DNA of 64,000 nt from Branchiostoma floridae (Eukaryota > Chordata > Leptocardii > Amphioxiformes > Branchiostomatidae): NCBI RefSeq assembly GCF_000003815.2, contig NC_049991.1, positions 2,843,513-2,907,512 of the forward strand, read 5' to 3'. The notes beneath the pieces were generated by a model. That model saw nothing but the letters and a program-made list of their open reading frames with translations, was not told where the DNA came from and did not search any database. Within the stretch, counting starts at the first letter, position 1; each line of letters begins with the position of its first letter. Positions 1,556-40,728 of the stretch are shown here, one piece after another. The translations under genes were made by a program, and so were the position numbers.

Positions 1556-1850
1556 TGTCATTTTGTTTGCCACGCAAGCACAAGCCAAAGACATAGTCAT
1601 CTAAAATCGTTTTACATTTTACAGACATATGATCGATAGTGAAACTCGAAGCTTGAAGAAAACTAATCTGAAACGTCTCTATAATATCAAACTGCCGATG
1701 ATGGTTTAGTTGATTTAGTTGTTGATCGATCACAAAGAAACCAATCATCGTGAATGGGTCTCATTATTCAATTCTTCTCTAGACAACTTACTTGAAATTG
1801 TTGTTTACGCATTTAGTTATGAAATGAGTTTTACTGATATGCAAATTTTA

Positions 1851-2131
1851 AGTTAGTTAAGTCCTTCCCGCGCCTAATGGCGCATAGGGCGGCGCCCATC
1901 TCCGTTTCATTAGCCCTTGGGCCACACATCGCAATCACTACAGCAGGGGGCTAGTCCACTGGTAGTGGTGTGTGTTCAACTTCCATACTCTTTCCCGAAT
2001 GCTGAGTGCTAAGCAGAGAAAGCAGCATGTACCATTTTTAAAGTCTTTGGTATGACTCGGCCGGGGATCGAACTCACGACCTACCGAATGCAAGGCGAAC
2101 ACTCTACCCACTAGACCATTGCACCGGTTAT
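1851..2131 (-). mobile_element. tRNA-derived SINE
   Basis: Read on the minus strand, the element starts with a tRNA-like head. It has an A-box region GTCTAGTGGGTAGAG and a B box GTTCGATCC. A unique body follows with 'agactttaaaaatggtacatgctgc'-type sequence, ending near 'ggaaggacttaac'. It is flanked by a perfect 12-bp target duplication, ATGCAAATTTTA, at 1839-1850 and 2132-2143. The equivalent site in the right arm (near 11830) is uninterrupted, so the insertion followed the arm duplication. A second, more diverged copy lies at 36388-36652. Confidence 0.85.
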
Positions 2132-2429
2132 ATGCAAATTTTACCAATTCTTTATTCAAAAGAATTCCCCGAATGCAATTGGCTTTTGTTCTTCGCAAGG
2201 CATTTTTGATACGTTCTGTTACAGTGTAAATATCAGATGGCTGCAAATTACGAGAAGAAGGCTCATCAAAAACAACTGTGTATACATGCGCAGTACATGT
2301 ACATAGGAGGAGTCTACAATAGATAGATCCAGTTGTATGACATTGAATAGTATTCATGCACTAAACTGATATGGAAATTGGAATTCACAGAAAAGGCAAT
2401 GTCCATTTACATTGTATTGTACACACAAT

Positions 2430-2433
2430 CAAT

Positions 2434-2464
<31 letters not shown>

Positions 2465-2472
2465 ACACACAA
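2430..2472. repeat. (CA)n microsatellite
   Basis: Run of CA dinucleotides in the left arm. Its right-arm counterpart is the (TG)n tract around 11415-11540. ORFs rich in Thr-His or Cys-Val across these tracts are artefacts. Confidence 0.85.
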
Positions 2473-2599
2473 TGTTCAATGATGTCTGTGGGCAAGCAGA
2501 TAACTAGCAAACACAATAATCCAGATGGGATAACACTAGTGCCCGTGTCACTGCCTTTAGCGGTCCATCAAAAAGCAGATCTCTCGACAGTTTGATGTC

Positions 2600-2935
2600 C
2601 ATCTAATATGCACTTGGACCCATTGTTGCAAGTGATGATCAGATTAACATCAAAATGTTGGGTCAATCTTTAGTTACCTCATTTTCATGTGTTGTTATCT
2701 TTAGTTTAATTGATCCCTTTTACTGTTGCTTCTTTTGGATATTATTTTGTATTTGCTGTTTTTTGTTAGAATATCCTTATGTTATGTACTTAGCTTTTCT
2801 TTGCCTATTTTCGATAGTTTGTAGTTAGTTTTTAACTGTTGGTGAAGGTGTGGGCCTTGTAAAGGACGTATAAATCATGTTGCCCACACCTCGCAGAACA
2901 TGTTCTCTGAAACCTAATAAATAAATAAATAGACA
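2600..2935 (+). mobile_element. Probable LINE 3' terminus with (AATA)n tail
   Basis: An AT-rich segment that ends in repeated AATAAATAAATA. Just before the tail it has a short hairpin-forming pair around GGTGTGGGC and GCCCACACC. It is absent from the right arm. A simple-repeat tail after a polyadenylation-like motif is typical of CR1/L2-type non-LTR elements. No reading frame is recognised. Confidence 0.35.
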
Positions 2936-3067
2936 GCTTAATAATTGCTAGTGCACCAGCCATCTTATTCAGGACTTTGTCTGCTTGCTATGTCCATGTC
3001 AAGTGCTGATCTATAATGAAACCAAGTAGTTTTGCTTGAGTTACCTGTTCTATCATTTTACCATTCA
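2936..3067 (-). pseudogene. LINE reverse-transcriptase remnant
   Basis: Minus-strand translation gives NGKMIEQVTQAKLLGF, then IDQHLTW, then KVLNKMAGALAI. This matches the conserved post-palm region of non-LTR reverse transcriptases (pattern K-x-LG-x2-ID-x2-L-x-W). One stop codon interrupts it. It is a short dead fragment with no counterpart in the right arm. Confidence 0.5.
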
Positions 3068-3800
3068 AAGAAAGTCATAGTGCATAATCATATTCATACT
3101 GAATACGTGCGAAACTCACGACAAAGAATGTGCCTAATGAGGACAACAATATAAAAAAATCTGATGATAAAAAATAATGCCTAAAGACCTAATCTTCAAA
3201 CGTCCGAATGAAATAAGATTCTTAAAAGTTTTCGTTTAATCATTGGATATAACATGCCAATCTCATCATAGAAAGTATCTTTATGTGACCTTGGTACCTC
3301 AGCAGAAATTCCGTTTTTTTTGTATCTCTTAACTTGGATGTGCTATGGTCTTTTGGGTTGCAGATAGCCTGTAACATAAGGAACGCACGGTATATGTTTG
3401 GACCTCCTAGCAGGTTGCTCTAAAACTGCAGGGGCGTTTTGGTCATCATCTTTTAAGATGATAACATAACAAGTGAACGACAAATGATGCAAACTGGTAC
3501 TTGATTTGCATGTTTAATCAGGAAAATCTACTTTTGTAGTGTTTACCATTATAGGACGCAAATATCTGTAAAAAAGATTTCGAGTCCATAGTATTTAGAT
3601 CCTGTAGGGCGCAAGTGAATAACGTCCAAATAGTATATGCCATGAAAAGTCCCTTCATTGAAATTCACAGGAAATGCAATGTTTTCCAACTTATTAACAT
3701 ATTTGTTTATTACAGTAATACTTTTCATACGTCACCTCCACCCCAGCACCCCCCCCCCCACACACACACACACAAAATGGTTCAGAACACCAAATTTTAC

Positions 3801-4167
3801 CTCTATCGTCTTGTTGTAACACACCCGGCGCGTGCATCGGGTTCTCGAACAAGTCGGCAGCGTTACAGTCCACCCTGTTTGTATTTTCTGCTGGTGGTTG
3901 TCCACCCTGTTGACTTTGGGGGCTAGCCTGCCGTGGGTTGTCCATTCTATTGACATCAGTGAACTGATACACGTTGGTGTCGGCGATCGTCACTGCACTC
4001 ATCGGAGGAATAGGTACATCCTGTTGTTTGGACGNNNNNNNNNNNNNNNNNNNNNNNNNNNNNNNNNNNNNNNNNNNNNNNNNNNNNNNNNNNNNNNNNN
4101 NNNNNNNNNNNNNNNNNNNNNNNNNNNNNNNNNNGCGTTCATGGTCGTCATAGACGTCGTTTCTCAT
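3801..4167 (-). pseudogene. Broken left-arm copy of lectin-receptor cytoplasmic exons
   Basis: The minus strand encodes DTNVYQFTDVNRMDN, then DLFENPMHAPG, then LQQDDRG, with a splice donor (AGAG|GTAAAA) at 3800. It is the reverse-complement paralogue of the right-arm exons at 9530-9616 and 9799-10002. Relative to those, the larger exon has one extra base before DTNVY. The smaller exon is one base short and reads into a TGA right after its acceptor. The NPMY tyrosine has become histidine. An N gap (4035-4134) lies between the two exons. I infer a decayed copy; an alternative start downstream cannot be excluded. Confidence 0.6.
4035..4134. other. Assembly gap (100 N)
   Basis: Exactly 100 N, a conventional placeholder size. 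The flanks align with right-arm positions 9564 and 9785, so the missing sequence is probably about 220 bp rather than 100. Confidence 0.95.
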
Positions 4168-5447
4168 TCTGTTTTAAAAGATGATTCATGGAAATACAAG
4201 TTATTTGAATTTTCATCATGTTTCGTCATTTGTTAATAATTTGACCAATGCTTCATAGGGATAAAGGTTAGAAATAATAACCTGGTAAGATCGATGGCCA
4301 TCAAAGACTTGACAAACTTGCTATAGGGCGTATAGCATTAAGCGAGCAAGAATTTGAAGGGTCTTTCAAGGCTCGCTCACGGTGCGCTCAATGATCACTA
4401 GGGTCTTTCAATAATCTCATGATGATCTTTCAATGGTCATGGTGCCATGGTCACCATAAAAGTTGCTTCAAAGCAGTAGGTACAATTTCAACAACGTCAT
4501 TGGCCATCTGTGATGTGGCAAATGTTTTACCACTCGACTCGCATCATCCTGTGGATTGGCTAGGGAGATGGTCTTTTGCTGCTGTCGCTAGTAAAAAAGC
4601 ATTGAGCTGTTACCTACCTGAATCCATATCCTGGCGTGAAGGTGATGTCAGCTCGGAAGTCGGTAAGGCAGGGAGGGGCCTTCCTCTAATGCGTGTTTTC
4701 CTCATCGTCTTTCAAGCAATGGAGCTCACCTAGTACTAGAATGGGCGATGCTCCGAGAATTCGAAATGTTGATACAATAAAAAATGGTGTTTCAAAAAGA
4801 CCGGGAATGTTTGAACAAAGAAAAAAGCCACATATGCTAAGATATGCAATGCGCGTATTGACTTGAAGCACTTTGAAGTAAATGCAGGCACGTAGACTAA
4901 TGAGGCAAGACATCATGAATTATCTATTATTTTCCTTATACCATTATTATAGTTAAACCAACAGCATTCTTTTGTGACATTCAAAGTTCTTTATTTCGAT
5001 TCAACTGTTACAACTAACCGCCACACGTCATGTCTTTATCTTCTGGATGAAAGAATAGAATGTCTACACTGTCAGTCCGGCATCTGCTTTGAGTATCACC
5101 GAGGTTGATCATTAGTTTGTATCTGGAGAAAAAAACAGCTTATCGTGGAATTAATCTGCCTCACATGTAGAAACGTCGTCATTGGTAAAATAGTCACGGT
5201 ACGGTATCGACGATACCTTCTTCACATACAAACTAATGGTCAAACTCGGTTTGAACAAAAGACGATCAAAACGAACAGCTCAAAATTGAATTTTTCCATC
5301 GCTTGTGTGGATCAAGATATCCTTGTGACTCGTATGATTACTTATTTGACGAAAGATAATAACTACAAAAGTTGGGTCGTAAAAGTGATTTTACAATAGT
5401 ACGGAGCCCTCATACCTACCTCCATAAAGTATTTAGAGCTTTTGTAC

Positions 5448-5497
5448 AAGATGGTGTCTATTAGTGAAATAATGTGATAGCACCCCTCTAGTTCTCA
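5448..5497 (+). repeat. Single unit of the 71-bp minisatellite
   Basis: The segment matches one unit (GGTGTCTATTAGTG followed by ATGTGATAGCACCCC) of the array at 26455-26990. Here it abuts the truncated C-type lectin exon. Confidence 0.7.
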
Positions 5498-5502
5498 AGA
5501 CA

Positions 5503-5565
5503 TACTATTGATCCTATGTGGGACGACGTCATATGCACTGACGCTGCTGACCGTGACAAAGTCGT
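5503..5565 (+). pseudogene. Relic of the last C-type lectin exon
   Basis: The bases GACATACTATTGATCCTATG and the following GTGGGACGACG align with 22500-22535 of the intact lectin gene, where they encode GHTSGPMWDDAD. The frame is lost immediately afterwards. The downstream sequence keeps aligning with the 3' flank of the intact gene, which shows a duplicated and decayed 3' end rather than chance similarity. Confidence 0.65.
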
Positions 5566-7426: not shown

Positions 7427-7887
7427 TTTTATTGGTACTAAATGTATTTCTATTTTCTAATCTGCCAAGAATGACTATTGGGTATAATGCAAAATTAAAA
7501 TGGCGATCAATTGCAACGTTTACTCATCATCATATCTATAGTCATTGGCTTAATTTTGCTAGATGTTATATTTACATCTAAGTTTGTAAAACATCTAGTT
7601 TGCATTATTTTCTACAGATAACTGCTAAAGACAACTTAAGATAACGCAGAAGTAATTGGTAATGTGCAGCTTGGTATCTATGAAAAGTAAGGAAAAGTAC
7701 AAATATGTAACATTGACAGATGTAATGTTTTTATCTGTTGCTAATCATCGTCCCAACTTTTGTTATTTTTCGCCTAAGAAGGAATCACACGAGGACATCC
7801 TAATCCACACAAGCGATTGAAAAATTACATTTTGAGCTGTTCGCTTTGATTTTCTTTTGTTCAAACCGAGTTTCATCATTATAGTTT

Positions 7888-8092
7888 GTAGACGTCTTAT
7901 TTTGGTCCCCCGACACTAGGAGAAGAGTTGGCCGCCCAAGCACAACTCTTAAGAAACTCATTGAGGTCGAAACAGGGCTGGAAGGGCAAGGGCTACTCTC
8001 TGCGATGAAGGACAAGCAGTTCTGGAGGACTAACTTCGTCTGCTCCACCTCACACGAGGAAGAATGATGATGATGATGATGATGATGATACT
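7888..8092 (+). mobile_element. LINE 3' end with (GAT)n tail
   Basis: An open stretch translating as GLEGQGLLSAMKDKQFWRTN and then FVCSTSHEEE ends at a stop. It runs straight into (GAT)n at 8066-8092. The block is missing from the left arm. A coding end followed at once by a simple-repeat tail fits the 3' end of a non-LTR retrotransposon; the family is not identified. Confidence 0.45.
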
Positions 8093-9033
8093 TGAAATTA
8101 CTATTTTACCAATGACGACTTTTCTGCGTATGTAAGGCAGACTAATTCCTCGATAAGCTGTTTTTTCTCCAGATACAAACTAATGATCAAACTCGGTGGT
8201 ACTCAAAGCAAATGCCGGTCTGGCAGTGTAGACATTCTATTCTCTGATCTAGAAGATGAAGACATGACGCGTGGAGGTTAGTTGTAACAGTTGAATCGAA
8301 ATAAAGAACTTTGAATGTCACAAAAGAATGCTGTTTTTTTAATCATGATAACGGTAGGAAAATAATAGATAATTCATGATGTCTTGCCTCATTAGTCTAC
8401 GTGCGTCGTCAATCCCGTGTCTGCATTTACTTCAAAGTACTTCAAATCAAGACGCGCACTGCATATTTTAGCATATGTGGCTATGTTTCTTTGTTCAAAC
8501 GTTCCCAGTCGTTTTGAAGCACCATTTTTTACATGTTCGAATTCTCTGAGCATCGCCCATTCTAGGACTAGGCGAGCTCCATTACTTGAAAGACGATGAG
8601 GAAAATAAGCATTAGAGGAAGGCCCCTCCCTGCCTTACCTACTTCCGAGCTGACATCACCTTCACGCCAGGATATGGATTCAGGTAGGTAACAGCTCAAT
8701 GCTTTTTTTAATAGCGACAGCAGCAAAAGACCCTCTATCTCCCTAGCCAATCCACAGGATGATGAGAGTCGAGTGGTAAAACATTTGCCACATGACAGAT
8801 GGCCAATGACGTTGTTGAAATTGTACCTACTGCTTTGAAGCAACTTTTATGGTGACCATGGCACCATGACCATTGAAAGATCATCATGAGATTATTGAAA
8901 GACCCTGGTGATCATTGAAAGCACCGTGAGAGAGCCTTGAAAGACCCGTCAAATTCTTGCTCGCTTAATGCTATACGCCCTATAGCAAGTTTGTCAAGTC
9001 TTTGATGGCCATCGATCTTACCAGGTTATTATT

Positions 9034-9422
9034 ACCAGAGATTACCAGTGTGTGAAAGGATTTGTAAATATTGTACATCTAAAGCAGTGGGAGACGAAAC
9101 ACATTTCATTTCCAAATGTTCATTCAACGAAACCGAAAGAATCACCCTGTTTAGAGAAGTCACAAAGACTTATCCCAACTTCCCCACATTGACAGACAAA
9201 CAGAAGGCCACTTTTCTCTTGAAATCGCAGAACCCACAAATTTTAGAAAATGTGGGGCTTTTCGTCTCCCTCTGCTTCTTAAAAAGAAGTCAAACCCAAC
9301 CTGCTTAGAAATAGCCAACACTAGTATTAGATTAGAACATTGTTTATGACTGTCCATTGTCACTATGTGTATACCATGTACTTGCAATAAGCCCTCGGGC
9401 ACGAACTTGCAAATAAACTTCT
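9034..9422 (+). mobile_element. 5'-truncated LINE insertion
   Basis: The open frame gives ICKYCTSKAVGDETHFISKC and continues to a stop at 9308. This C-x2-C-x8-H-x4-C cluster is typical of the C-terminus of many animal LINE ORFs. The 3' end carries AATAAA. The element is bracketed by TTATTATTA copies at 9026-9034 and 9423-9431, while the left arm has a single uninterrupted copy near 4283. It is therefore a clean insertion made after the arms duplicated. Confidence 0.7.
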
Positions 9423-9529
9423 TTATTATTATTTCTTACCTTTATCCCTATGAAGCATTGGTCAAATTATTAACAAATGACGATGAAAATTCAAATACTT
9501 GTATTTCCATGAATCATATTTTAAAACAG

Positions 9530-11423
9530 AAAGAGAAACCGAGGTCTATGACGACCATGAACGCAGCAATACCGGAGAGTATAGTAGTCAACTCCCTGTG
9601 ACTGAAGGCTTCATTGGTAACCAGAAGTATGGGACTGGTGCTGTGCACAGGCGGAAATGAAAGGTATCGATGCACCGTAGTAGCCTTCGCAAACGATGCT
9701 ATAGTTTCAGGTTCGCTTGTGTTTTTTCATTCCAATGAAAGGACCTTTACATATCGGTTTACCTTACGAAAGTTATTTGCAATGCGTCCAAACAACAGGA
9801 TGTACCTATTGCTCCGATGAGTGCCGTGACGATCCCGACACCAACGTGTATCAGTTCACTGATGTCAATAGAATGGACAACCCACGGCAGGCTAGCCCCC
9901 AAAGTCAACAGGGTGGACAACCACCAGCAGAAGATGCAGACAGGGTGGACTGTAACGCTGCCGACTTGTTCGAGAACCCGATGTACGCGCCGGACGATAG
10001 AGGTACGTTTTGGTGTTCTCAACCATTTTGTGTCTGTGTGTGTGTGTGGGGGGGGGGGGGGGGGGGTTCTGGGATCGACGTGAGGTATGAAAAGTATTAC
10101 TTTAATCAAAAAATATGTTAATAAGTTGGAAAAACATTGCATTTCCTGTGAATTTCAATGAAGGGACTTTTCATGGCATATACTATTTGGACGTTATTCA
10201 GTTGCGCATTACATGATCTAAATACTGTGGACTCGGACTCTTTTTTACAGATATTTGCGTCCTATGATGGAAAACACTACAAAAGTAGATTTTTCCTAAT
10301 TAAACATGCAAATTAAGTACCAGTTTGCATCATTTGTCGTTCCCTTGTTATGTCATCATCTTTGAAGACGTTGACAAAATCGCTCCTGCAGTTTCAGAGC
10401 AACCTGCTAGGAGGTCCAAACATATACCGTCCATTTCTTATGTTACAGGCTATCTGCATCCCAAAAATTGAGACCATAGCTCATCCGAGTTAAGAGATAC
10501 AAAAAAAACGGAATTTCTGCTGAGGTACCAAGGTCACATAAAGATACTTTCTATGATGAGATTGGCTTAAGATGATTGGCATGTTTTAACCAATGATTAA
10601 ACGATTACTTTTAAGAATCTCATTCTATTCGGACGTTTGAAGATTAGGTTTCCAGGCATTATTTTTTCTCATCAGATTCTTTTATATTGTTGTCGTCATA
10701 GGGCACATTCTTTGTCGTGAGTTTAGCACGGATTCAGTATGAATATGATTATGTACTATGACTTTCTTTGAATGGTATGTTGACTCATGTTATTTGATTG
10801 CTTTTGGACTCCATGAAGAATAGATTTTGTGATTGTAAAGTCTAATGGGGATCGAAATAAACAAATCAATACTATCATCTGCAACAAAATATCTTAAATG
10901 GAAGCCATATTGATGGAAACATCAATGTGGTGTTTCCAAATGAATCATCCAGTTATTATCTCCATGAAAAATGGAGATATAGTTTTGGGTGTGTCTGTGT
11001 GTCTGTCTGTGTGTCCGGATGTTTGTAGTGAGCATAACTCAAGAACCTCTGGATAGATTACGATGATATTTGGTTTGTGGGTAGGTGTTGAAAAGACAAA
11101 GGTCAGAGTCAATTTTGTGCCACCTAGTATGTGACCTTGGTACTGCAGCAGAAATTCATTTTTTTAATCATTTGAGCTAGATGTGCCATAGTCTTGATTT
11201 TTGGATAGCAGATATCTTGTGACATAAGGGATATGTGGTGTATATTTTTGTTGATTTGTTTACAGCAGAAGACACAGACAGGGTGGACTGTAAGCCTGCA
11301 TGCTCGTTCGAGAACCCGATGTACGCGGCGGGTACGTTACGACAAGACGACAGAGGTACGTTTTGTGGTTTGCATTCTTTTAACTTTTATCATTTCTACC
11401 ACAATGGAATGTTTGTGTGTGTG

Positions 11424-11459
<36 letters not shown>

Positions 11460-14400
11460 TTTGTTGTACATGTGTTTGTGTATGTATGTATGTATGCATG
11501 TGTATGTGTGTGTGTGTGTCTGTATGTCGGTGTGTGTGACTGATTGTGTGTACAATACACTGTAAATGGACATTTCCTTTTCTATGAATTCCAATGAAAT
11601 GACCTTTCTATATCAGTTTAGTGCATGAATACTATTCAATGTCATACAACTGGATCTATCTATTGTAGACGCCTCCTATGTACATGTACTGCGCATGTAT
11701 ACACAGTTGTTTTTAATAAGCCTTTTCTTAATTTGCAGCCATCTGATATTTACAGAACGTATCAAAAATGCCTTGCAAAGAACAAAAGCAAATCGCATTC
11801 GGGGAATTCTTTTGAATACAGAATTGGTAAAATTTGCATAAGATCAGTAAAAGTCATTTCATAACTAAATGCGTAAACAACAATTTTAAGTAATTTGTCT
11901 AGAGAAGAATTGAATAATGAGACCCGTTCACGATGATTAGTTTCTTTGTGATCAATCAACAACTAAATCAGTTTTCTTCAAGCTTCTGGTTTCACCATCG
12001 ATCATATGTCTGTAAAATGTAAAACTATTTTAGATGGCTATATCTTTGGCTTGTGCTTGCGTGGCAAAAAAAAAAGGTTAAAGTGCTAAAGTTTATGTTT
12101 GAGTTCGCATTTCTCATTATTTACTGCGAAATGGCATTAAATGCTAACATGGATGAAAAGCGTAGAAAATGGTGTGTTTTGGGTGCAAATTGTGTTTCGG
12201 CCCGACTTTTTTTCCGGATATCCATACGCCTTCAATGTAAACAGGCCCGTGACCTAGATTGACCTCTGAAGCAACCCGCGGAGAAGGCCAAACGCGCTCC
12301 AGTGCAAAACTCCCTTCCGTGACTAACTCCTCTCCCGGCAATGTAGAGGGGTAATTTTTACGCCCTCACGGCGCCACCAAATCAGGTACATTCTAAAGCT
12401 CCCTTTCTCGCCAGAAATCTCCTTCCCATGGTAATATCCCTTCCCCCAGCATGCTTTGCGCGGAAAGACGTTCTCTTCCCCAGGGCACAAAAGCTTCCCC
12501 AATGCGCCCCGCTATGACCATGGATACCACCACGGAACCCGGGCGTGGATTAATCAGAGGGCGCTGTGTAGGAGCGTGGTTGGGGACCGTGCGAAGGAGG
12601 ATGCTGTAAAAGTACCATTGGTCAAATTATGCAAATAACCTTCCAATGTCAAGTGATGTAACACTCCAAAAATAGATATTTCATGAATATCATCGGAAGA
12701 ACACACACCAAGGAGATTTAGCAGCTGCATTAGCTATAGGTCAGTACGTTGAAATAGGAAGATAGCGAAAAGGTAACAAAAGATAGCAAAAAGTCCTCTC
12801 AACAACTTCAAGGTACTGTGGTTGGTTATATACTTATGAAATCCAAAATAAGTAATGTTCATCCATGTCCAAACTTACGAATTTGGAAAATGGAATTTCA
12901 GATTTTAGCATGTTGCACAACCAACACGGTAAAAAGCTCACTTTTCCAACCACCACAGGCGAAAATGAAAAAAAAAATACACAATAGATCTACAGACACC
13001 CAATACATTACATGCAGGTCTGAGGTCTACGAACTCTTGTTATAACTGTATGCAGTTTAAAGACTGGGATAATGTTAGATTCATAGGAATCAATTGATTA
13101 ATTCAAAAGTCCAGTCAGAACTGCTTTTTACGCTAGAAGCAAGCATTTCAGATTTCAGCCTCTCATGGGACTGTAGCCTTAGTTGATTGGAGGCGGGTCT
13201 CTTTGAGATAATCAAGCTCACCGGTCTTTAGATAACTACTGAAAATGATACTACGGGTACTGTGGAGATAACAGTGTACAAAAAGTCCAGTCAGAATGCA
13301 TTTTTATGTTTAAGAGCAAGCATTTTAAATTTCAGCCTCTCATGGCACTGTGGCTTGATTTGATTGGGGGCGTGGCTCTTTGAGATAATTAAGGACGTCG
13401 AAAATGATATCATAGATACTATAGAGGTGACCAACAACTTAATTCAGAAATGATCTTTTTTTCTGCAAACACACAAAAAAGATTATGTTCTGTTTTTCCC
13501 TCCGTGAAACGGAGAGTTTGTTTTCACCGCTGTTTGTATATCAGAGGAAAGTTTGTCAGCATGATAACTAGGGAACGCATGAATGGATTATTTCGATAAT
13601 TGATATGTGGGTAGGTGTGCACATGCCAAAGCAATGGTAGTAATTGTGGTACGGCAGGGCGCTCTAGCGGTGTGTAAGGGTTCTGCAGCAGAACTTCCGG
13701 TTTTTATATTTTTGGTTCGGGACTTGCTTGGGTGATGATTTTTCAGTGGTAGGTAGCTGTGTAAAAGCATAGTAAGGTGTGTGAGTTTTGGCCCCCTAGT
13801 GGTTTCCCAGGGGCAGTGAAATTAATTTTTGTGTTAGGTTTTGAGAAGAAATAATGAAAGCAGGGGTTGACGGATCGTAATGACTGTAGATATGCAGATA
13901 GCTTACGTAGTGATGTACATAATTGTATGTTTGTTGTACAAATTAGGAGGTAATTTTCATAATGCAATAGGTATGTGTAGAAACCTTCTACAGTGAATGT
14001 CTGTTAGCAAGATAACCGGTGAATGCCTGGATGGACTGATCTGATATATGGTATGTGAGGAGGTCTTTTGAAGGGGAAGAAACGTACGTAGCGTTTTTTT
14101 TTTTTTTTTTTGTCTAGTGGCTTCTGACGGTTTTGCAGGGGATGTTTTTAGTTGGAAAATTGGGTGTAGCGTGGCTGTTGCGTAATGGTGCATATATCTG
14201 GGTGGTTACGTCATACCCATGTGATAGTGGAAAGATTGACAAGAAGTGACCCCAAAGGCCATAGTTGCGGCAATAGAGGTCAACACGGCTATATACCAGA
14301 CTTTAGTGTCTAAGATTACAATACAATTGCTTATAGGGACAGTATATCATACATGATGGGGTGTACATGTTCCCCATAAGATTTAATAATCTATAAACAT

Positions 14401-17400
14401 TTCTTTTTTTCAGTTAGAAATGTAATACGTTTGACTGTCCTGTTATGAAATGCTGCGGATTAACTAATTGTGCAAACTAGCCCCTAGTTTGCATTAATAG
14501 TCCTTTATTACCTTCCCCAAGAAGGTTATGTTTTGGTAAGCGTTTGCATGTATGTATCTATGTTTGTAGAAGACCAGCATAATAGAGAACGCCTGGATGG
14601 ATTGTATTGATATTCGGTATTTTGGTAGGTCTTGATAAAGTCTGGAAACAATTAGATTTTGGGCCCCCTAGCGACCTATAACGGTACTGCAGTGAAAGTT
14701 CTGGGTTTGATATTTCGAGTTCTGGATATGTTGCGGCTATCTATGAGTTTTGAGTGGTAGACAGCTCTTGATGCCGAGAGTAAGTGGTATAGGTTTGCCC
14801 CCCCCCCAGCGGCTTGTTTTGGTACTGCAGGGCAGATTTTGTGTCAGACTTTGAAAGGGAATAACTCAAGAAGGGGTTAACGGATTGTCATGATTTTTGT
14901 TATGTACATAGCTTAAGTGATGCCTCATTTAATAACATATTACATATGAAAATTGGAATCTTATTTGCATAATCAATTAGGAAATTGTCTAAACACGCTC
15001 AGTTCAATTATAGGACCGCTGCAACATGTGACGTTTGTAAATGAGGAAGAGAACAATATTGATAGATATATATATTATGCAAAAATAAGACCTAATTTGC
15101 ATAATTAATGAGAAAATGTTATTATGTCATTGTTGTAAATGACGGGAACTTCTTACTTGTAGCATTTGGAAGTTATATACAGGTGAATAAGGTCCTTATT
15201 TGCATCAGTTATCATAAAATGCGATAATAGCCTTCTTTTTTTAATATAGATTGCGCATGTCTATTTGGTGGAGGAAATGATCATCTTATATAATTTATGC
15301 AAATGAGAACATTATTTGCATAAATAATGACAAACGATTGATACAGCAATTGCAAAAGATCATTTGGCGAAGGTATGGGTTCGTGGAACTCTAGTTATAG
15401 AAGGCATCTCCCAAGTTATCTAGAGATCACAAATCATGACGATCCGTCAACCCTTCCCGTGTTATTACCCTCCAAAGGGCTGATGCAGGCGCGGAAGATT
15501 TCCTGTAAATTCCGGGAATTTTTACCAATCGGACATACTAGTACACTACTCAGTTAGGCTAATATTTCTCTCTTTGTTAGTTACATCTGTCTTATCTTTG
15601 AGTATTTGCTATTATGAAATAAAGTATTCGTATAAACTGTCCTCATTATTTATGCAAATTAGTCTCTGATTTGTATTATAAAAATTGATCATGTAAAGCA
15701 TCTCCAAAGCTATCTCACTCCCTCGCTCGCTCACAGCCCATTACATTGAAAGCTATCTGCATCCCAAATACCATGACAATCTGTGAACCCAAATCATTCC
15801 ACTCCAAAGGGATGATGCAACTACGTGGGCGCCGAAAAGTTCCTGAAGAATTCCGGGAATTTTTTTTCCAATCGGACGTATCATATACTGTAAGGCTAGT
15901 TCCTGAGATGTCTATAAAAAACACCCTCCAACCACCACAGCCTCACCCATTTCACGGAGGTTGATTTTTACGAACGCTTGTTTGATATGCACTCTTGATG
16001 AATTTGCGTCATCGGAGGTTGCCAAAAAAATGGGTATCCGCCAACCTCCGGAATCGTAAAAGAAACTCCGGTCCGAGACCACAACGAATAAAATCGTTTT
16101 ACATTACGGGGGGTTCGAAATATTGTTTCCATCACATTCTTTGCTTTTTCATGAGTTAAGGAAGTATGATTCTGTACTCCTGTAAAAATAAGTATAGATT
16201 TAATTTATCATGAAAGATTCACATGCATGCCATATTTTTAGAAACCATTTACTGGGTATTTTCACATCTATTACATCCAGTCATTGTTTATCTGCAAATG
16301 TTTTCTGACTCACGACCGTCAGCATGTTCCTTCAAAGGCGAAGAAACCAACGGAAAAAATTCTAACACCAGTGAGATCCATGACGATCCCGGGAACGACG
16401 TGTACCACTGCATCAACGACGATGAAATCAACGACCCAGAACAGGCTGCTCACCAAAGTCCACACGGGGGACAGCAAGCAGCAGAAGGTTTTGTTGTTTG
16501 TTACCATTTCTACCACAAATGCATTAGAAGATCAATTTTATAGTATTTCAGGTCACTTGTTAGAATATTTCCATTTTTAGTATATCTGTTGATGTATTGG
16601 TCAACAGATGAACGTAACACGTTTAGCTATTGAGATTCTCCATATGACAATGAACAGGTGTCAGAAGACGCCTTTTCAAAGCCGCCATACTGAACCTTCC
16701 ATACACGTCACCTTAAAGTTATGGTTTTATGACATCGATGTTGGTTATTTTACAGCTAATTGTACTCTTTCATGTCAACCATCAACAATCAGCCAGTATG
16801 AAGAAAAAAATTGGCGGTTATGTAAAGCTCTTTGACGAATGCAAAATGATGGCAGCAAGTAAAGAATGATATGAAGTATTGTCTGCTCACAGGTACTAAC
16901 GATGCCTCGGACAGCTGTGAGTTCCCCAGAGGACTCTACGGGACATTTATTCGTCCCAATCTGCTCCTCCATGTTGCAATCGTCATCATAATAGCAGCCG
17001 TCATTGCTGTAGTAGCTGGACTCGTCGCATTCCTCACGACCATAGATGAGGCTCATCCTCTCTCACCCAACAGTCCTCTGGAGCGGAGTGTCACGTCAAG
17101 CCGACCAGTGTCACCATTCCCCGCCACCTCTGCCGGTTCCACACTGGAAAACAACAGTTTAACTCTCTCGGTTGGTTTCCTATCTTGCATTCGACGTGTA
17201 GTCTCGATTTTGGATCACTAGAATTGGGTTTCTGGGCAACTGATTCAAAGTCCTATCTAAAATTATGAAATTTTTTTATTAATTTATTATGAATATTTTT
17301 TTTAAATATTTAGAAAATATATGTAAGAAACAAGCTGTCAAAAGCCACCTACCTAAGGTTTAGTCCATGGAAATCTCACATTTGCAGCGTAGTCTGACTC

Positions 17401-19769
17401 GTAAAGTATCCATCTAGTGATTTTGTGCCGAAACCCTTTTCACACCACCTGCTGACCTTTAAACTCTATAAACAAGACCTGATTGCGAGCACGCTGCACT
17501 TACTCGACAGTTTAACAGACATTCCAAATATGGTCAACAAAATATGACAGCCACAACCCTAATAACCTGTAATATTCAGCTCCAAATTGCCAAAAATTGG
17601 CAACAAAATGGCTTTTGCCTTCATTTGTTTTAAATAGACTGGCTCTTCTTGGACCTTCTGTGTCTGCTTCAAATAAGTGACCATTTGCCCTGTTCTTTAT
17701 GCCAAAGAAGAGGCAGCTGGTAATAGAATAATAAGCATATACATTCTTATGAACACGCGAAGCTTCCAGGTTATAAAATGATAGCATTAGCCATTACGCC
17801 TTACAAAGCAATGAAATCTGTTACATTCTGATATATACATCTTAAACAGCCCGTAACGATTGTAACGGAAGAGCCAACCACTGCAACAGATTTGCCCCCA
17901 TGGAAGATAGCTGATGGTGTCACGGCGCCGAATGTGTCCTCTACCGACCTGTATCTGGAAACAACGAGCGTGTTTCCGCAAACCGGAACAGCAAATGCAA
18001 TCACCCCGACAAGTACAACTAAGGTAAGAAAATGTCCTATTTCAACGTGATGAATCGCAGTTTACATGTACGGTAGTACATTTGTATTCCTTTTATCACA
18101 AAATCTTCCAGGTTGTAAAATAAAAAAAATGACAATTTAAGCCCGGTTAAAAAGCACAAGGTAACAGATACTCAAGCAACTGGATAAAATTGTGAAGTTA
18201 TAAAAGTTTATCCAGTTGCTTGTGAGTTCCTGTAACCTTGCTTCCCTCTATTTGATCCAGTTGCTTGAAGAACTGTAATTCTGCCTAGATCTATTTGACT
18301 GTGAAGGAAGACCCAACCAACTCAACAATCTTGCCCATATGGACGACAGCTGACGTGGAGACGAGTGTGTCTCCGACCGATTCCCATCTGGAAACGAGTA
18401 CGTCTCCACAAGCTGGAACAACAAAGACGGTCACACCGGCAACTACAGCCAAGGTAATAAGAAACGATTCAAGATCTTTGAAATGACCCAGCCTATCATG
18501 TATCGCAAATGATGTGTATTTTAATTTACAGTGATACGAACATGATTGTATATTCATTTGTCTCCAGGTGTTGACACATAATGTCGAAAGGACAAGATTT
18601 GACCAGCTTCAGAAGACTACAAAGCAACACCCTTCAATCACTCACAAAGGTACCACAATCGGCCTTCATTTGTCCTTCACTGACGTGACCTGCTAACTTG
18701 CCTCAAACTCCGACGACTGTTGTGTCCCTATGACTGTCGTCATGAAAAACGACTCTCTTGTGTTCTCTGTTCATTATTTGATGGGAGATAACAGGAAATA
18801 CCCATCGATCCGCCACATTCTTCAATAATGCCCTCCCTTTCCCCCCACATAGGAGAGTGCTACCAAAGTCTGGGTTGCTGGGAGGATCGTTTCGACCGCG
18901 CCATTCCAATACTCGAGGGGACAGATCCACGTCTGGATGGCATCTATGGAGCTCGAAACAACCCCGTCGAGAAGTGTTACCAGGTAGCGAATTCTCGTGG
19001 GTTTATCGTGTTTGCTGTACAGGATGGCGGGCAGTGTTTCGGGTCTGCTGATGGCCACAACACTTTCTTCAAGTACGGACGTTCCTCCGCCTGTGGAGTG
19101 GACGGCAAAGGCGGGAGCTGGACAAATGAAGTCTACCTGATTGGTATGTAGCACTCGATGACTGTCTTTTGCGTCTAGAAAATGCTCCATGGGTACACGC
19201 AAATGTACGTTTACGATACTGCAATCAATTGCACTATTAACAGTTTAGGTACGTGACAGGATTCTTGTGTAGTGTGATCACATGTTCTCTTGTACTACGA
19301 TAAATGTCCAAGTCAAAATATTGCAATAAAATGTGCGCTCTAACCAAGGATAAATATTCATATGATCCTATGATAAGGATGTTTATAACATGGCAACGAT
19401 ACCCTGCGATATCGTACATCATAGAAACAGTAAATCATCAAATACATATTGTAGAGACCAGAGTCATTCATATAAATATGACAATGCTGATGACAGTCCT
19501 CTCGTCTGCACCAGGAGTCAATGTTGCCCTGGGAAAGCCAGCGTTTCAAACAAGCCTTATCCATCATACCAGCGGGATTGCCAGTCTTGCCGTAGACGGG
19601 AACACCGATACCAACTACGATCATGGTTCCTGTACACACACTATAGACATTGGGGAGACTAACCCGAGCTGGTGGGTGGATCTTGGGCAATCGTATGTGA
19701 TTGACAGGTATTTGTACAGATTTTACATGTATATTAATATATCACTCATTACATTGGATATGTATTAAA

Positions 19770-19801
<32 letters not shown>

Positions 19802-22581
19802 TGAACATAATTTCAAAATTTAATATCTATAGTTGACATGAATGTTTTTCAAACTAAATCTATAATTTGCTTCTGCTTCTAGCGAATGTCAGTCAATGCT
19901 TGCCAAAAGAAAAAGTCTATGAAAAGATCAGAGTGAAAAGTATGATATGTTAACATTCCTTTGTTCATGTAAGACTATGCATGCTGAATATTTACTATAT
20001 TGTGCCCATACTTTTAATGTTCACTTCAAAGGCAAAGCACCTGATGATCCCCGTATCCAAGTTACAAGTTCCAATACAATACGGGATCTATTAATAGTGT
20101 GAAGAGGAAAGATAATCCAAATAGTCACAAAACTGAGTACCATTGCCATTGTCAACATCTACAGAGTACTCATCTTCAACCGCCAGGACTGTTGTTCGGA
20201 AAGAATCAACCCCTTCAACATCCACATCGGGGATTCTGACCAGGTCAGCACGAACCCCAAGTGTGGAGGTGATCATCAAATGAACTGGAACCAGCCGTCC
20301 ATTTCCGTCTCCTGTAAGGGGATGAAGGGTCGCTATGTGGGCGTCCGTCTTCCCGGATCCTCCCGAATACTGACCCTGTGTGAAGTCCAAGTATTTTTGG
20401 GTAGGCCTTCACTACGTTTACTTCACATGGCTATGGCGTATTCATAGGACGTTGTCATGAAAGTTATGTGACTTATTGGCGACAGATAATTGAGGCGACG
20501 TTACCATTTGTGCGAATTTCGCCTAGCGGCCACACATTTTGGCGACGAATGACCATCAATTCGAGGCCAATATTAGAGTCTACAAGGCTGAGTCAAAATG
20601 TGATGCAAGTGATTCTAAAACTCACATCGGCCAATTTTTAATCGTAGCCTTATTGTGAAATTAGAATATTCAATTATCGTCCTTTATCACTAAGGACGAT
20701 AACATCTATGCAAATTTCAATGTAATTAAAGTTAACGCGCGTTCTTCATCTCATCAGGTCGTTGTGCCCCAATGTTCCTCGACAATTCCGCACCGAAACC
20801 CAACAAAATATCGTTCGGTAAGAGTACAAAGGACATTTGTTTCCTTTAATAACTAACAAGACAGTTTCATTTCGTTTCAATAAAGTAAAAAAAAAAACAG
20901 GCTGTCATGCATTCCTGTCAAAATGTCACAAAATTGTATCAGTATCTATCAAGTCAGAGAAGTAGCAAGCGTCCTGGATGCAAAAATTGATTTCACCAAA
21001 AAGTTTACGTTTTAGGGTACCTGCGGGTTTACAGATCATGATAATGTTAATGTAAATAGACTAAGTGACCATTTACGTAACCATAAATACGTAATGCAAA
21101 CAAGGAGCTGAGTTACATCTACGTGGTGGTAGTTGCTATGAGTACGACGACACATGCACAACTGTCACTTTTGATACTAAATCAACGTTTTGCCGTTATC
21201 TAGATAGACACTTGATAGTATGTTAATGTTAAGTGTCACATGTAGGTATGCTATGCTGTGTTTTGAAGATGCATGCGTGATACTTAAGTTCCTTATCTAT
21301 TTCATCTATCAGAACAGGTATGTCGGATGGGAGATGGAGCATCCTACCGAGGAACAGTCTCTAAGACTGAAACAGGTAAGACCTGTCAGCGCTGGGACAG
21401 TCAGACACCTCATAAACACTATTACTCAACTGCAAAATTTCCTTCGTCCGGGCTGGAGGAGAACTACTGCCGGAAGACTGAAGACTGGACCGAAGTTTGG
21501 TGCTTCACCACGGATCCCAGCACGAGATATGAGATTTGTGACGTGCCAGTATGTGGTAAGGTCCGATGCTGTCACTTCTATGACTATGTTAGTGCTTTTA
21601 TTTTATCCTTATTTGCTACAACATCTACTCCATAATCTAACGCCATCTGATCAATCATAAAGTTTGCAGACTAATCAATTATATCTAAACAAAACAAGAA
21701 AATACTGCTAGCTTTGCGACCATTCCATAGGTAAGAAAGCAACACTCTCTAGTAGCGATAATAATTTTGCGGTCACCAATGGTTATAGCTTTGGCGTACC
21801 TGTTTCAGTTGTCGGACACAAGCGGCAAGGGTGCAAGGGAGGCTACATACGACTCGGGCTACACTGTATCCGTCTGGTTCCCATCCAAAAGTCTTTTGTG
21901 GACGCACAGCAGGCCTGTAAGGCGGATGGGGCGACTCTGGCTATGCCTAAAACAACAGAACTGGACCTCGCTCTGAGACGCCTGGTCAAAACATCCGGAG
22001 GCAACGACGAACACTGGATTGGCATGACGCAGGCTGGCGGCCTCGACTGGACATGGGTGGACGGGACACCTCTGGGACACTACCGGGTATGTGTTCTGTT
22101 GACAAGAATAATAGTTGCTAGATCTCGTACATTCCATTCTTATCTTCAACATTGGGGTCAGTACTTATGCCATTGCCAAGTCTTGTTTAATATTTGGTGC
22201 AGTCATCATTTTTCTCATCACCTCCTTTTCTAATTCCTGATTAGTCTGTTGCGAATTATTGTCTGTCTGGCTACACTCGTACTCCATTAATCCACAATGC
22301 AGATACATGAGGGAATGGTACACTGCATCACGTACATTACAGAAGATGGACAAATAAAGGATCACGAAAGTTTATACACTACTTTTAGTAATCTCGAAGA
22401 AATTAACATTAAAGCTGGTTTTCTTTTTCCCCAGGCATGGAACCCCGGTGAGCCAAGGGGTGACAAAGGGGTTGTACTGTGCGTTCAGTACTGGTTTTCA
22501 GGACATACTAGTGGTCCTATGTGGGACGACGCTGATTGCTCTGAGGAAAAGTGGTTCATCTGCCAAATTCTTCCTGCTTGA
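9530..22581 (+). CDS. Type II transmembrane lectin receptor: NPxY tail, stalk, fucolectin, kringle, C-type lectin (5' partial)
   Basis: Exons read: 9530-9616, 9799-10002, 11266-11355, 16338-16487, 16893-17170, 17850-18023, 18289-18453, 18568-18649, 18853-19143, 19515-19707, 20165-20400, 20758-20817, 21313-21555, 21809-22086, 22435-22581. All phases agree and the sum is 893 codons including the stop. The first exon with the ATG was not found. Order: cytoplasmic cassettes with two NPMY (NPxY-type) motifs; one membrane span (LLLHVAIVIIIAAVIAVVAG) followed by a Ser/Thr/Pro stalk built from two related exons; a Cys module (GECYQSLGCW to GGSWTNEVYL); a fucolectin-type F5/8C domain (NVALGKPAFQTS, RQDCCSER); a kringle (YRGTVSKTETGKTCQRW, NYCRK, WCFTTDP, CDVPVC); and a C-type lectin fold (WIGMTQ, WVDGTP, WNPGEP, MWDDADC). 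No signal peptide is seen, consistent with type II topology. Likely a cell-surface glycan receptor with endocytic or PTB-binding signals; function is inferred. Confidence 0.8.
10028..10071. repeat. (TG)n plus poly-G tract in intron
   Basis: Simple repeat directly after the splice donor of the 9799-10002 exon. The left arm has the equivalent poly-C/(CA)n at 3750-3775. Confidence 0.85.
12069..16337. other. Large intron of the lectin gene, repeat-filled
   Basis: No exon is recognised between 11355 and 16338. It holds two imperfect tandem blocks (about 13108-13215 and 13270-13395). From 13480 to 15300 there are several degenerate copies of the 'pGCATAACTC..GGATGGATT' dispersed family. Two related blocks lie at 15390-15550 and 15700-15900 (shared CCTCCAAAGGG and TTCCGGGAATTTTT). 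There is also a poly-T run near 14094-14113. Confidence 0.5.
18155..18242. repeat. Small fold-back repeat in intron
   Basis: ACAAGGTAACAGATACTCAA and CAACTGGATAAA on the left pair with TTTATCCAGTTG and TTCCTGTAACCTT on the right. It is a short hairpin between the two stalk exons. A related CCAGTTGCTTG motif recurs at 18258 and 39760, so it is probably MITE-derived. Confidence 0.55.
19769..19801. repeat. (CA)n microsatellite
   Basis: Simple repeat inside the intron that splits the fucolectin domain. Confidence 0.85.
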
Positions 22582-25120
22582 CTAGGAAATTGGTAGTCTC
22601 TGTTTGATTACCCCATCTTATCAGTCAATGACATTGTACATGTTCATGATCAGTGACTAACTGTTCCACTTGTTTAAAAGTGTAAGTTAATGGGTGCAAT
22701 GGGTGCATACTTTGTGCTTTCATCATACAATTAAGTCTGGTCACTCTCTTTCCATGCATTGAAAAAATAAGACAGAAAAGACTAAAACGAAGCAAGGAAG
22801 AAATGTTGGCCTCTCTTATCAACCACTCCACACAGATGTGTTTCTGTGGATAAAATCCCATAAAAACAGCATAATTAAGAAACCAGCTGCGCCAAAACCA
22901 TGCGATTTGCCTCTATGACACGCTGTCATGTAAGTTTGCACAAAATTTTCATTTCCTACTGCAATCCTCAGAAGAATTTAATAAGTGAAAAATCACCAAG
23001 CTCTAGTGATTAAGCCAATTTGTGTATGGATCATGGATGTCATGTGAAAAATCTACTTTGTAGGGCATAATTCTACATCATATATGAGTAATAACGTGGT
23101 GGTGGGTGTATCGCCGCTGTATTGGTTCACTCTACTTTGACATTTTATTTTAATTTTATTTTAGATTCCGACAGTGTGTGCTTTTTAACTCAGCACTGTA
23201 AAGTACACGTACATTCCTGCACTATCAGTCTATCAGTATCATGCCGTCAGTGAGAACAATGGGTCACTTCTACTGTTTCACTGATTATGTGATTAAAATA
23301 CCTTAGATCTACATTTTGAATACAATGATTGACATAAATAGTTTAATTCAATATTTGATATTGGTGATGTGCAGCAATTCGTCAGGTTGTTATACATTTA
23401 TGCTATCAACATACGATGCACCTGATAAGTATACATCGTCGAAAGTGAGACGGCCAGGCAACAAGATATGCCAAACAACAAGTACTCAAGCAACTACATA
23501 TGATTTTGGAAACGGCCAGGCAGAATCAAGTACCTTTCGTCAAAGACACTAAAGAGATCTCCTTGGAAAAAAGATTTATACATCCTAACTCTGAATGAGA
23601 GAAGTAAGCTAGACTTTTGCTTAGGGTGTACCTATTCCATATACAAAGAACAGTTAGTTCTTCAAACAACTGCACGGTTGTGCCATGGGATATCACCAGT
23701 GTCACCCATTGTCGTAAAAACGTTAGCTCCTGCAATACAAACAACAAGAGCTAAATAAGTCGTCTTTACCTGTCTTACCCGTGTTTCCTTCGGACTGCTT
23801 TTCCTCTTGTTTTCCTCTCCTTTGCCTATTAATTCATAATAGAATAGAAAAAAAAATGTTCTCCAACTATCGTGAGGATATATAAACCTGCTTTGCAGGT
23901 AATCTCCAAGCAGATTCCTCCGTGGCAAGACAGTAACATAAGCTGGGGAAGGACTTAAGCCGGCAGAGGAGTAAAATTGCCCACACGGAGTTTTACTCCT
24001 CTGCCGGCTAAAGTCCTTCCCCTGCTTATGTTACTGTCTTGCCACGGAAGAATCTGCTTGGAGATTACTTTGCAAGATATCTTTAGTGTCACTGACAAAT
24101 TGTAGTGGATTCTCTCTGACACGTTTTGACTGTGATAATTGTTATTTGGCGTACTTTATAACTATATTCTTAGTATGACTACATATTTGACAAAAATATT
24201 TTTTGTATTTGCCAGGATGTAAATACACAAGAAATGTAACGTACTTGGCGTGAAACCTAGTTTTTAGTCTATTGCGTTTATAACGCCACTTTGGCGTAAT
24301 TTTATGGGTGGCATCCTCCGGAGATGCCAAATCTAATGCGCGAGGGCGAAAAAAGAAAAATCCAAGAAAATAACGCTGTTAAATCACAGAACTAACAGTC
24401 CATTGTTTCTCAGACTCGGTTTGTCGTATGTTCACATCAAGAAACAATCATCGCCATTTCAAAAATGTTTTATTTTGCCATTCTTGTTTAAAGAGGGGAA
24501 TAAGGGCGCTGTGGTCCCATGCCCTGACCATGTACCCCCATACCCTGGAGACCAGATCCTCTGTCAAGCATAAAAATTGACCAGCGATGCTATTGGTTGG
24601 CCAGTTTTGTTTTAGAACAGGCGAAAATCAATGCGCGCAGATATCATCCGTAAAATTAAGCCAGTGGGGCCTAAGCTGTAGTATTTGCTTCAGTTTGTAA
24701 CATAAATAACCGAAATATCAAACTTGTTGGTAGTATTTCATGATCAATTTTCTGTTTTTGTTGTTGAAAATGTCAGATTGGCGATCAATTGCAACTTTTC
24801 CTGATCGTAGTCATTGGCTGTATAAAGTTTATGAAATATTTTGTTTGTATTATTCTATGGAAACAATTGTATGGCATCACTTCATAATTGAAAACTATAC
24901 TATTGGTTATGCACAACTTGGCATCAATCAGAAGGAAATGTACAGACGTGTAAGGTTGACTGCTGTAATGCGCTAACCATAAAGAAGCCTCAAAGCTCAC
25001 ATCTTACAAATGATACAGACATAACAATAAGTATAAAACACTTCATCCAATTGATGGTTACCCCATTTTCTTATCTTCACTAGATGTCGTGGAAGAGATT
25101 CATCAGTCACGTATGTTTAC
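22582..25120. other. 3' flank of the lectin gene, paralogous to 5.5-7.7 kb
   Basis: No gene is recognised. The sequence aligns in direct orientation with the spacer of the inverted duplication (for example, GATCAATTGCAACTTTTCC at 24783 against 7504). A hAT-like MITE sits at 23900-24067. A canonical AATAAA just after the lectin stop was not found; AATAAG at 22766 is the nearest match. Confidence 0.5.
23900..24067. mobile_element. hAT-like MITE with about 65-bp inverted termini
   Basis: The termini TAATCTCCAAGCAGATTCCT and GAATCTGCTTGGAGATTA extend into a long inverted repeat (GGCAAGACAGTAACATAAGC on the left, its complement on the right). A near-palindromic centre, GGCAGAGGAGTAAAA, is also present. 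The flanks CTTTGCAGG and CTTTGCAAG form an 8-9 bp target duplication with one mismatch, which suggests the hAT superfamily. Non-coding. Confidence 0.8.
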
Positions 25121-37496: not shown

Positions 37497-38022
37497 CTTG
37501 TCCTCTCTTTGACCTCTGAACTGGAATAGTGTATTAAAGGAAGAGGGTAGCTCTGCACCTTTCTATTTTACAAACGCTAGCTTTAGGACATAAGGTCTGG
37601 CATTTTTTAATAAAAAAATTCATTATTTTAATTTTTGTTTTATGCTAAATAAAGTTGGATTCTTTTAGTGATGATTTATTGTTTTGAGTTATTATATAGC
37701 ATACTACCCCTTAAGGCAATAGTGCACTATTCCGGAAGTAGAAGAAGCAGACGACACAAACTGCATGCACGGAAGCAGGCAAGCTACAAACCTTTCGGAT
37801 TTTTCCAACTTTGGAGCTTTACACTGGACTATCTATGGCGTTCAGTACAAGAAGATACAGTGAGAACATGTCTAGAAGTGCCAAATAACCCCTGTGTCTT
37901 ATTTGATAACGACAAGGGACTTTCTTTCATGTTTTCAACCTTGCATGGTCATGATTTCAAAGTTGACAATATTGAGAATTAATCTATTCAGATACTGTGA
38001 GTTGTGAGAACTCTAAAACATC
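37497..38022. promoter_or_regulatory. Divergent promoter region between the flavin-reductase-like gene and MRM2
   Basis: The two start codons lie 527 bp apart and face away from each other, so both core promoters must be here unless transcription begins in neighbours. No TATA box is evident. A 104-codon plus-strand frame at 37668-37982 ends before the MRM2 start and would be an upstream ORF if transcribed; it has no recognised domain. Confidence 0.5.

Positions 38023-40728
<2,706 letters not shown>

Follow-up and report, generated by a model that had tools for sequence, protein, structure and literature searches.

A predicted NPxY-tailed type II membrane protein with F-type lectin, kringle and C-type lectin modules, and the paralogue family around it

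The stretch of DNA analyzed here, referred to as the window, comprises 64,000 nucleotides (C13:2843513-2907512) of a searched genome of 513,431,437 bases in 431 contigs. Its plus strand carries a gene of 15 exons between positions 9530 and 22581 (Table 1), which predicts a lectin-bearing membrane protein. When the exon joining was re-derived, the exons spliced into a single open frame with AG/GT dinucleotides at every internal exon boundary and a stop codon at 22579-22581. An earlier interpretation made from the letters of the window, hereafter the sequence-only reading, had joined 15 exons without a phase conflict, and this is borne out; its length of 893 codons could not be reproduced, the joined product having 922 residues. 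The intron phases are, in order, 1,1,1,1,0,0,0,1,1,2,1,1,1,0, and E9 (a WSC-like module), E10-11 (an F-type lectin domain, FTLD), E12 (a 20-residue linker) and E13 (a kringle) form class 1-1 cassettes. Exon shuffling in lancelets is described as biased toward class 1-1 modules (PMC4284660).

No in-frame ATG was found in E1, and the first exon of the gene was not located. E1-like stretches upstream of two paralogues, B (E 0.004) and C (E 0.001), share the same open phase and also lack an ATG, so a further 5' exon appears to be missing and E1 is probably internal. Searches of the window with Rfam, at gathering scores, and with ARAGORN gave no matches.

Table 1. Exons of the window gene and the adjoining inverted paralogue (window positions)
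Feature	Position	Strand	Evidence
E1, first tail exon found, probably internal	9530..9616	+	Open in frame, ag/gt; weak matches 5' of genes B and C, same phase, without ATG
E2, tail exon, FENPMY at 9969-9986	9799..10002	+	70-85% identity in 6/6 copies
E3, duplicated tail exon, second FENPMY at 11307-11324	11266..11355	+	E2/E3 DNA 87% over 69 nt
E4, tail exon, E2 relative, YHCI (YxxPhi-type)	16323..16487	+	E2/E4 DNA 71% over 116 nt
E5, membrane span (16961-17044) and stalk start	16893..17170	+	Hydropathy; 27 genome matches including window
E6, S/T-rich stalk, class 0-0 exon	17850..18023	+	Frame, composition, phases
E7, duplicate of E6	18289..18453	+	E6/E7 alignment, phases
E8, stalk end	18568..18649	+	Frame; present in 6/6 copies
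E9, WSC-like cysteine module, class 1-1	18853..19143	+	Pfam WSC, below cut-off
E10, F-type lectin domain part 1 (AVDGN, His553)	19515..19707	+	Pfam, PDB, motif count
E11, F-type lectin domain part 2 (RQDCCSER)	20165..20400	+	Pfam, PDB, motif count
E12, 20-aa linker exon, class 1-1	20758..20817	+	Frame; present in 6/6 copies
E13, kringle, class 1-1	21313..21555	+	Pfam 9.2e-23; best PDB match plasminogen
E14, C-type lectin domain part 1	21731..22086	+	Pfam, PDB
E15, C-type lectin domain part 2 (EPR, WDD) and stop	22435..22581	+	Frame, Pfam, PDB
5' end of inverted paralogue (E1/E2 copies about 3796-4160)	3059..4280	-	E4-E13 left of window

By hydropathy, the joined protein has one membrane span at residues 205-232 (peak 3.26, against 1.09 for the next segment), and the same scan revealed neither a second anchor nor a signal peptide. 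The span is flanked by Arg on its N side and by Asp and Glu on its C side, which fits an N-in topology and supports the proposal of a type II protein with a single span. These charges would place the N-terminal 204 residues in the cytoplasm. Within this tail FENPMY occurs twice (residues 86 and 111), in E2 and in its duplicate E3. Among 200,000 shuffles of the tail, 568 contained at least one [FY]xNPxY and none contained two, the two natural copies being products of one exon duplication and hence not independent in this test. No ITIM or ITAM (immunoreceptor tyrosine-based inhibitory or activation motif) was seen in the tail on inspection by eye, without a scripted test. The NPxY motif recurs in relatives of the gene, which strengthens the earlier assignment of an NPxY tail. 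All five C7 genes that were read have [FY]ENP[MV]Y in E2/E3-type exons, and five further loci of the tail family, outside the nine described below, all have ENPMY, preceded by Phe in two. Paralogues differ in how many NPxY repeats they have: D (C7:12199688-12208653; L024, L025) combines FENPMY in E2 with four E3-like exons that each contain YENP[VM]Y. Beyond the membrane lies a stalk of 182 residues, 33% of them Ser or Thr, and its duplication is confirmed by the 51% match of E6 and E7 over 55 columns.

The assignment of the more distal modules to a fucolectin, a kringle and a C-type lectin domain (CTLD) is likewise confirmed. In the profile search that had been suggested beforehand, the joined protein matched both the kringle (9.2e-23) and Lectin_C (1.5e-15), together with F5_F8_type_C_2 (4.8e-19) and F5_F8_type_C (1.3e-8), all above the Pfam cut-offs. 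The F5/8C unit is an F-type lectin according to phmmer searches of PDB (FBP32, 4.7e-54, two domains; eel lectin, 3.4e-23), the kringle is closest to plasminogen, and the CTLD matches the yolk-sac IgY receptor, the phospholipase A2 receptor, the mannose receptor, langerin, DC-SIGN and CD69.

The cysteine module of the sequence-only reading is present as E9, although its resemblance to WSC had been missed. Scanned alone, E9 matches Pfam WSC at 8.9e-4 with 19.9 bits (cut-off 27.8), and none of nine shuffles matched anything; within the whole protein the match falls to 13.9 bits (E 0.066). A WSC match at 0.05 or better is found in all ten family copies, the best at E 6.9e-7, and the copy at locus L034 reaches 26.5 bits, also below the 27.8-bit gathering cut-off. 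A PDB search with a profile of the ten copies returned nothing better than E 0.24, so that the link to WSC comes from Pfam, and Kremen did not appear among the PDB sequences that the module matched. The AlphaFold2 model of exon 9 alone, made without an alignment, had a mean confidence (pLDDT) of 43.0 and was too poor for a fold search. The module is therefore called WSC-like, a putative divergent WSC domain of which some relative may pass the cut-off.

In the F-type lectin, AVDGN at 537 corresponds to the calcium motif h2DGx, and the triad residues His553, Arg582 and Arg589 are present together with Asp584 (RQDCCSER). The earlier observation that RxDxxxxR is kept while the His lies 28 residues away, compared with 26 in the eel lectin, holds, and 26 is the spacing in all six reference FTLDs counted. 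A review prints the fucose motif as HX24RXDX4(R/K) (PMC5712786), a spacing of 24 that fits neither the window nor the six references. Vicinal cysteines, which contact fucose in the eel lectin (PMC5712786), are kept in the window and in an inverted copy beside it and are not found as a pair in paralogues A-E. The spacing is 28 or 29 in seven family copies, which makes the longer loop a family trait; both Arg are kept in all seven and the His in six.

The other two modules depart from their well-known binding sites. In the CTLD, EPR and WDD stand in place of EPN/QPD and WND, the calcium-site motifs of sugar-binding C-type lectins; the replacement of EPN by EPR had been read correctly before. EPR also occurs in copies A, C and D, and thus in four of the six CTLD-bearing copies with the window included, while B has EPQ and E has EPT. 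A classical calcium-dependent sugar site in this CTLD is therefore unlikely. Of the two glycan-binding folds originally proposed, the CTLD is weakened as a classical sugar binder. The kringle has its six cysteines (Cys 678, 699, 727, 738, 750 and 755). Lysine-binding kringles have a paired acidic centre (D55/D57 in plasminogen numbering), which is not preserved as a pair here: PDADKGPW of plasminogen kringle 4 aligns to TEDWTEVW, in which one acid has become Trp, as in all six copies read. This replacement makes strong lysine binding doubtful.

The gene had been taken for a lone chimera, and this did not hold, since nine loci share its set of WSC-like and kringle modules and its tail and transmembrane (TM) region has 27 matches. 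In each of the module searches 150 candidates were scored, out of 527 and 510 for the kringle and 983 for the CTLD. Among those scored, the nine best matches to the kringle exon, itself included, lie at 87-100% and the tenth at 71%. The nine best matches to the WSC-like exon (80-100%, next 76%) fall at the same nine loci, seven of which also have CTLD matches of at least 74%. Beside the window gene, six copies were compared with it at the level of single exons, namely the inverted copy and paralogues A, B, C, D and E. Paralogues A and E each have distinct matches, in the order of the window, to 14 of the 15 exons, C to 13, B to 12, and D and the inverted copy to 11, leaving out E3 matches that fall inside E2 (inverted copy, B, C and D), E4 matches on E2 (B and D) and E6 on E7 (D). 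Before these exclusions the counts were 12 in the inverted copy and 14 in each of A to E, and five of the seven copies, window included, were collinear. Separate E3-like exons are also present in B, C and D. In this comparison E1 was recovered in the window gene alone; the fainter E1-like stretches of B and C came from a separate search.

This recurrence bears on whether the joined frame is a prediction artefact that merges two or more adjacent genes, such as one for a tail/TM protein and one for a secreted lectin. Falsely fused lancelet gene models are documented, including a Lectin_C-fn2 chimera refuted by expressed sequence tags (PMC4967905, PMC6071037). In the window gene, E3 and E4 are separated by an intron of 4,967 bp, and the donors of E1, E4, E5 and E11 match only five of nine consensus positions. 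However, the frame runs without a stop to the end of E15 and encodes a single hydrophobic segment, whereas the published fusion contained a stop upstream and a signal peptide downstream (PMC4967905), and the introns from E5 to E15 are short (114-679 bp). Moreover, the same exon order recurs in loci with other intron lengths, which is a strong argument against accidental fusion of neighbours. Such an artefact is thus very improbable, and the open frame and recurring order support a single gene, as first proposed.

Two loci with related modules were seen in addition. At C7:12144422-12144796 (L019) two exons of a distantly related CTLD (28-34% identity) lie between the FTLD and the linker of gene C; they may be an extra module or belong to another gene. 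On the minus strand of C2:9571925-9581264, WSC-like, FTLD, kringle and CTLD exons follow in order with no tail/TM exon match nearby, and this head may be anchored in some other way or be a secreted product.

The tail and membrane region is more widely distributed than the complete gene. A search with it, in which all 110 candidates were scored, yielded 70 exon matches, 27 of which, window included, represent the membrane exon and cover the span region. Comparison with 12 CTLD, 16 WSC-like and 19 FTLD matches, taken from lists of about 150 each, places a WSC-like module near at least 12 of the 27, an F-type lectin near at least 16 and a CTLD of this type near at least nine. Ten have none of the three among the matches listed, which is not evidence of absence. 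Five tail/TM loci outside the nine were read for ectodomain exons. Two have a WSC-like module and an F-type lectin, as far as fetched; one has F5/8C, F-type lectin and CTLD; one has WSC-like and PAN modules; and one has two stretches without a Pfam match followed by chitin-binding-like, F-type lectin, PAN and CTLD modules. At loci L032-L034 the modules were assigned from genomic exons alone, with splice sites viewed by eye, and the scores of Chitin_bind_1 (19.6 bits) and of the PAN at L032 (20.7 bits) are below the Pfam cut-offs, that of the PAN at L034 being above. The two unmatched stretches, L032 3531-3941 and 5128-5556, lie between stalk and FTLD and look alike by eye (ARMTSYT...GHPVYY and SRMTTYT...GRPVYV); they possibly represent an undescribed extracellular module.

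Sequence divergence among the copies is uneven. The ratio of nonsynonymous to synonymous substitution rates (dN/dS) against the window copy is 0.56-0.79 overall in all six copies, calculated without E1, E3 and E4; the E4 matches of B and D, which fall on E2, and the E6 match of D, which falls on E7, were dropped. By module it is 0.21-0.77 for the kringle, 0.36-0.64 for the WSC-like module and 0.59-0.90 for the F-type lectin. Single segments exceed 1 (TM exon 1.89, 1.62 and 1.15; E2 1.44 and 1.36; E4 1.22), and E2 of the inverted copy has a dS of 0 and hence no ratio. Such values might be displayed by a decaying, functionless member of a drifting gene family, a possibility to which the missing start exon, the broken-looking inverted neighbour and the stops in parts of C and D also lend weight. 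However, all 15 exons of the window copy are open and keep their splice dinucleotides, the kringle and WSC-like ratios stay below 1, and the FTLD framework is conserved. Decay is accordingly considered quite unlikely.

The differences between copies of the F-type lectin cluster in the segments that surround its sugar pocket. The mean pairwise difference is 0.366 in pocket segments and 0.091 elsewhere among seven copies, and 0.462 and 0.159 among 11; only 2 of 151 circular shifts of the pocket-loop mask do as well, the segments having been picked from residues named in PMC5712786 but after the alignments were viewed. The location of this variation also helps in weighing a role in adhesion or as a decoy, in which the modules would hold cells to matrix or to fucosylated partners and NPxY would serve as an integrin-like anchor for phosphotyrosine-binding (PTB) domains. 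Clotting and matrix proteins often contain kringle and F5/8C modules, and NPxY motifs serve integrin tails too. In contrast, the motif in the window is FxNPxY, the type of the low-density lipoprotein (LDL) receptor, its copy number varies by exon duplication, and the sequence changes lie in the sugar pocket loops. On these points adhesion is regarded as unlikely though credible.

Based on the anatomy of the gene, its family, the recurrence of its tail motif and the location of its variation, the preferred interpretation, with a probability of roughly 0.6, is a lectin receptor for capture and uptake in which a constant NPxY chassis carries shuffled ectodomains. The product would be a type II receptor with a tail of about 204 residues bearing two FxNPxY motifs, one span and a duplicated Ser/Thr-rich stalk, followed by the WSC-like module, F-type lectin, linker, kringle and CTLD. 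The F-type lectin pocket, aided by contacts from the WSC-like module, kringle and CTLD, might bind glycosylated particles. The FxNPxY tail could then recruit PTB adaptors like ARH and Dab2, leading to clathrin-mediated uptake and perhaps also to phosphotyrosine signalling. Class 1-1 exon shuffling and fast change of the pocket loops would vary the captured targets while the uptake machinery stayed constant. Expression of the gene, sugar binding, uptake and a role in immunity or feeding are what we infer from this arrangement.

Several observations weigh against this interpretation. The gene is predicted from genomic sequence, and its start exon was not found in the searched sequence. Among the 27 tail/TM matches one contains a stop and two are partial, and the Phe of the strict FxNPxY is missing in three of the five other tail-family loci; moreover, FxNPxY is best known from type I receptors. 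The FTLD loop differs in length from the six references. Among the copies read, B and D gave no match of their own to E4, D showed no separate E6 and the inverted copy no separate E3, and stops occur within the E14 matches of genes C and D and in the E4 match of C. The inverted copy has NPMH and no longer keeps the triad His, and the sequence down to C13:2822001, which contains N gaps, revealed no CTLD for it. In addition, the dN/dS values are not low and allow relaxed constraint, and the pocket segments were chosen with the alignments in view.

A broader proposal is held more tentatively, at somewhat less than even chances. The capture receptor may belong to a combinatorial innate receptor family of a basal chordate, in which a constant chassis of NPxY tail, TM region and stalk, with its largely clustered TM exon matches, is joined by class 1-1 shuffling to varying sugar- and protein-binding modules (WSC-like, F-type lectin, kringle, CTLD, PAN, F5/8C and chitin-binding-like), with diversifying fucose-pocket loops and a variable number of NPxY exons. 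This would amount to germline-encoded capture with a constant tail and a variable head.

The inverted paralogue to the left of the gene has an N run within E1 and intron 1, an ATG at the E1 position, and a 1-nt length change in E2, where NPMH stands for NPMY. To it belongs the left arm of a large imperfect inverted repeat (window 1561-5327 and 7788-12073, arms 81-98% complementary), attributed to head-to-head duplication of the 5' part of the gene. Just past this repeat, a 41-nt plus-strand relic of the CTLD exon E15 (5488-5528, 88%) represents the remains of another copy. A self-complementary foldback of 170 nt (23899-24068, 91%), perhaps a miniature transposon, lies just downstream of the gene. 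Elsewhere, the window contains a tandem array of a 32-bp unit (154-528, 11.7 copies, 75% matches), overlapped by a long open frame without a Pfam match (71-577). At 38017-40725 lies an FtsJ-type RNA methyltransferase, strong at 40258-40725 (5.7e-33) and weak at 38017-38337 (0.0077, below cut-off). A 346-codon open stretch at 44003-45040 has C2H2 zinc-finger matches near the cut-off, and a TRIM-like gene at 47209-49380 encodes RING, B-box, filamin and NHL domains in one open stretch.

Novel domain combinations are a known feature of lancelets, and the literature is divided on whether they represent real genes or errors of annotation (PMC4284660 versus PMC4967905, PMC6071037). The combination of recurring exon order, recurring intracellular motif and pocket-focused variation provides a clean case that can be tested. 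It would illustrate one way for a chordate that lacks antibodies to vary its surface receptors, with exons being shuffled onto an uptake tail that stays fixed.

Amphioxus is described as having many innate-immune genes with novel domain combinations (PMC2575513), lancelet adhesion G-protein-coupled receptors bear kringle, C-type lectin and discoidin domains (PMC2246102), and more than 70 FTLD sequence clusters are cited for amphioxus (PMC5712786). Membrane proteins with FTLD and CTLD are already known, as is exon shuffling in lancelets. An NPxY-tailed type II family with such heads, and hence the chassis, is undescribed in the literature searched, which consisted of titles and abstract openings, with most subscription papers outside it. 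Two glycan-binding folds in one protein are not without precedent, examples being Drosophila furrowed/CG9095 (PMC5712786) and lancelet APEC proteins (PMC12373286). The comparison with vertebrate receptors in the sequence-only reading was not apt, the genome looking like that of a lancelet.

The multidomain APEC proteins resemble the window gene in lancelet origin and in having a fucolectin and CTLDs, two of them, in one chain. In contrast, they contain APEC and CUB domains and are described as secretory receptors, with no tail/TM chassis mentioned in the cited passages (PMC12373286). Furrowed/CG9095 of Drosophila combine FTLD, CTLD and CCP repeats with a predicted TM segment, so that F-type and C-type lectin domains are on one membrane protein as here, and the CTLD of CG9095 also lacks the canonical sugar residues (PMC5712786). 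Where these proteins carry CCP repeats, the window gene carries WSC-like and kringle modules. They are not known to have an FxNPxY tail, and their orientation differs from that of the window gene. Kremen, a membrane co-receptor with kringle, WSC and CUB domains, shares the presence of kringle and WSC in one protein (PMC3927612). Unlike the window gene, it has CUB and no lectin domains. It is also a type I protein. The LDL receptor has the exact FxNPxY tail motif found here, with the opposite topology and ectodomain repeats that are not shared. The vertebrate type II C-type lectin receptors (langerin, DC-SIGN, CD69 and Dectin-1) are stalked and end in a CTLD, as does the window product, but differ in having one CTLD, no FTLD, WSC or kringle, and other tail motifs.

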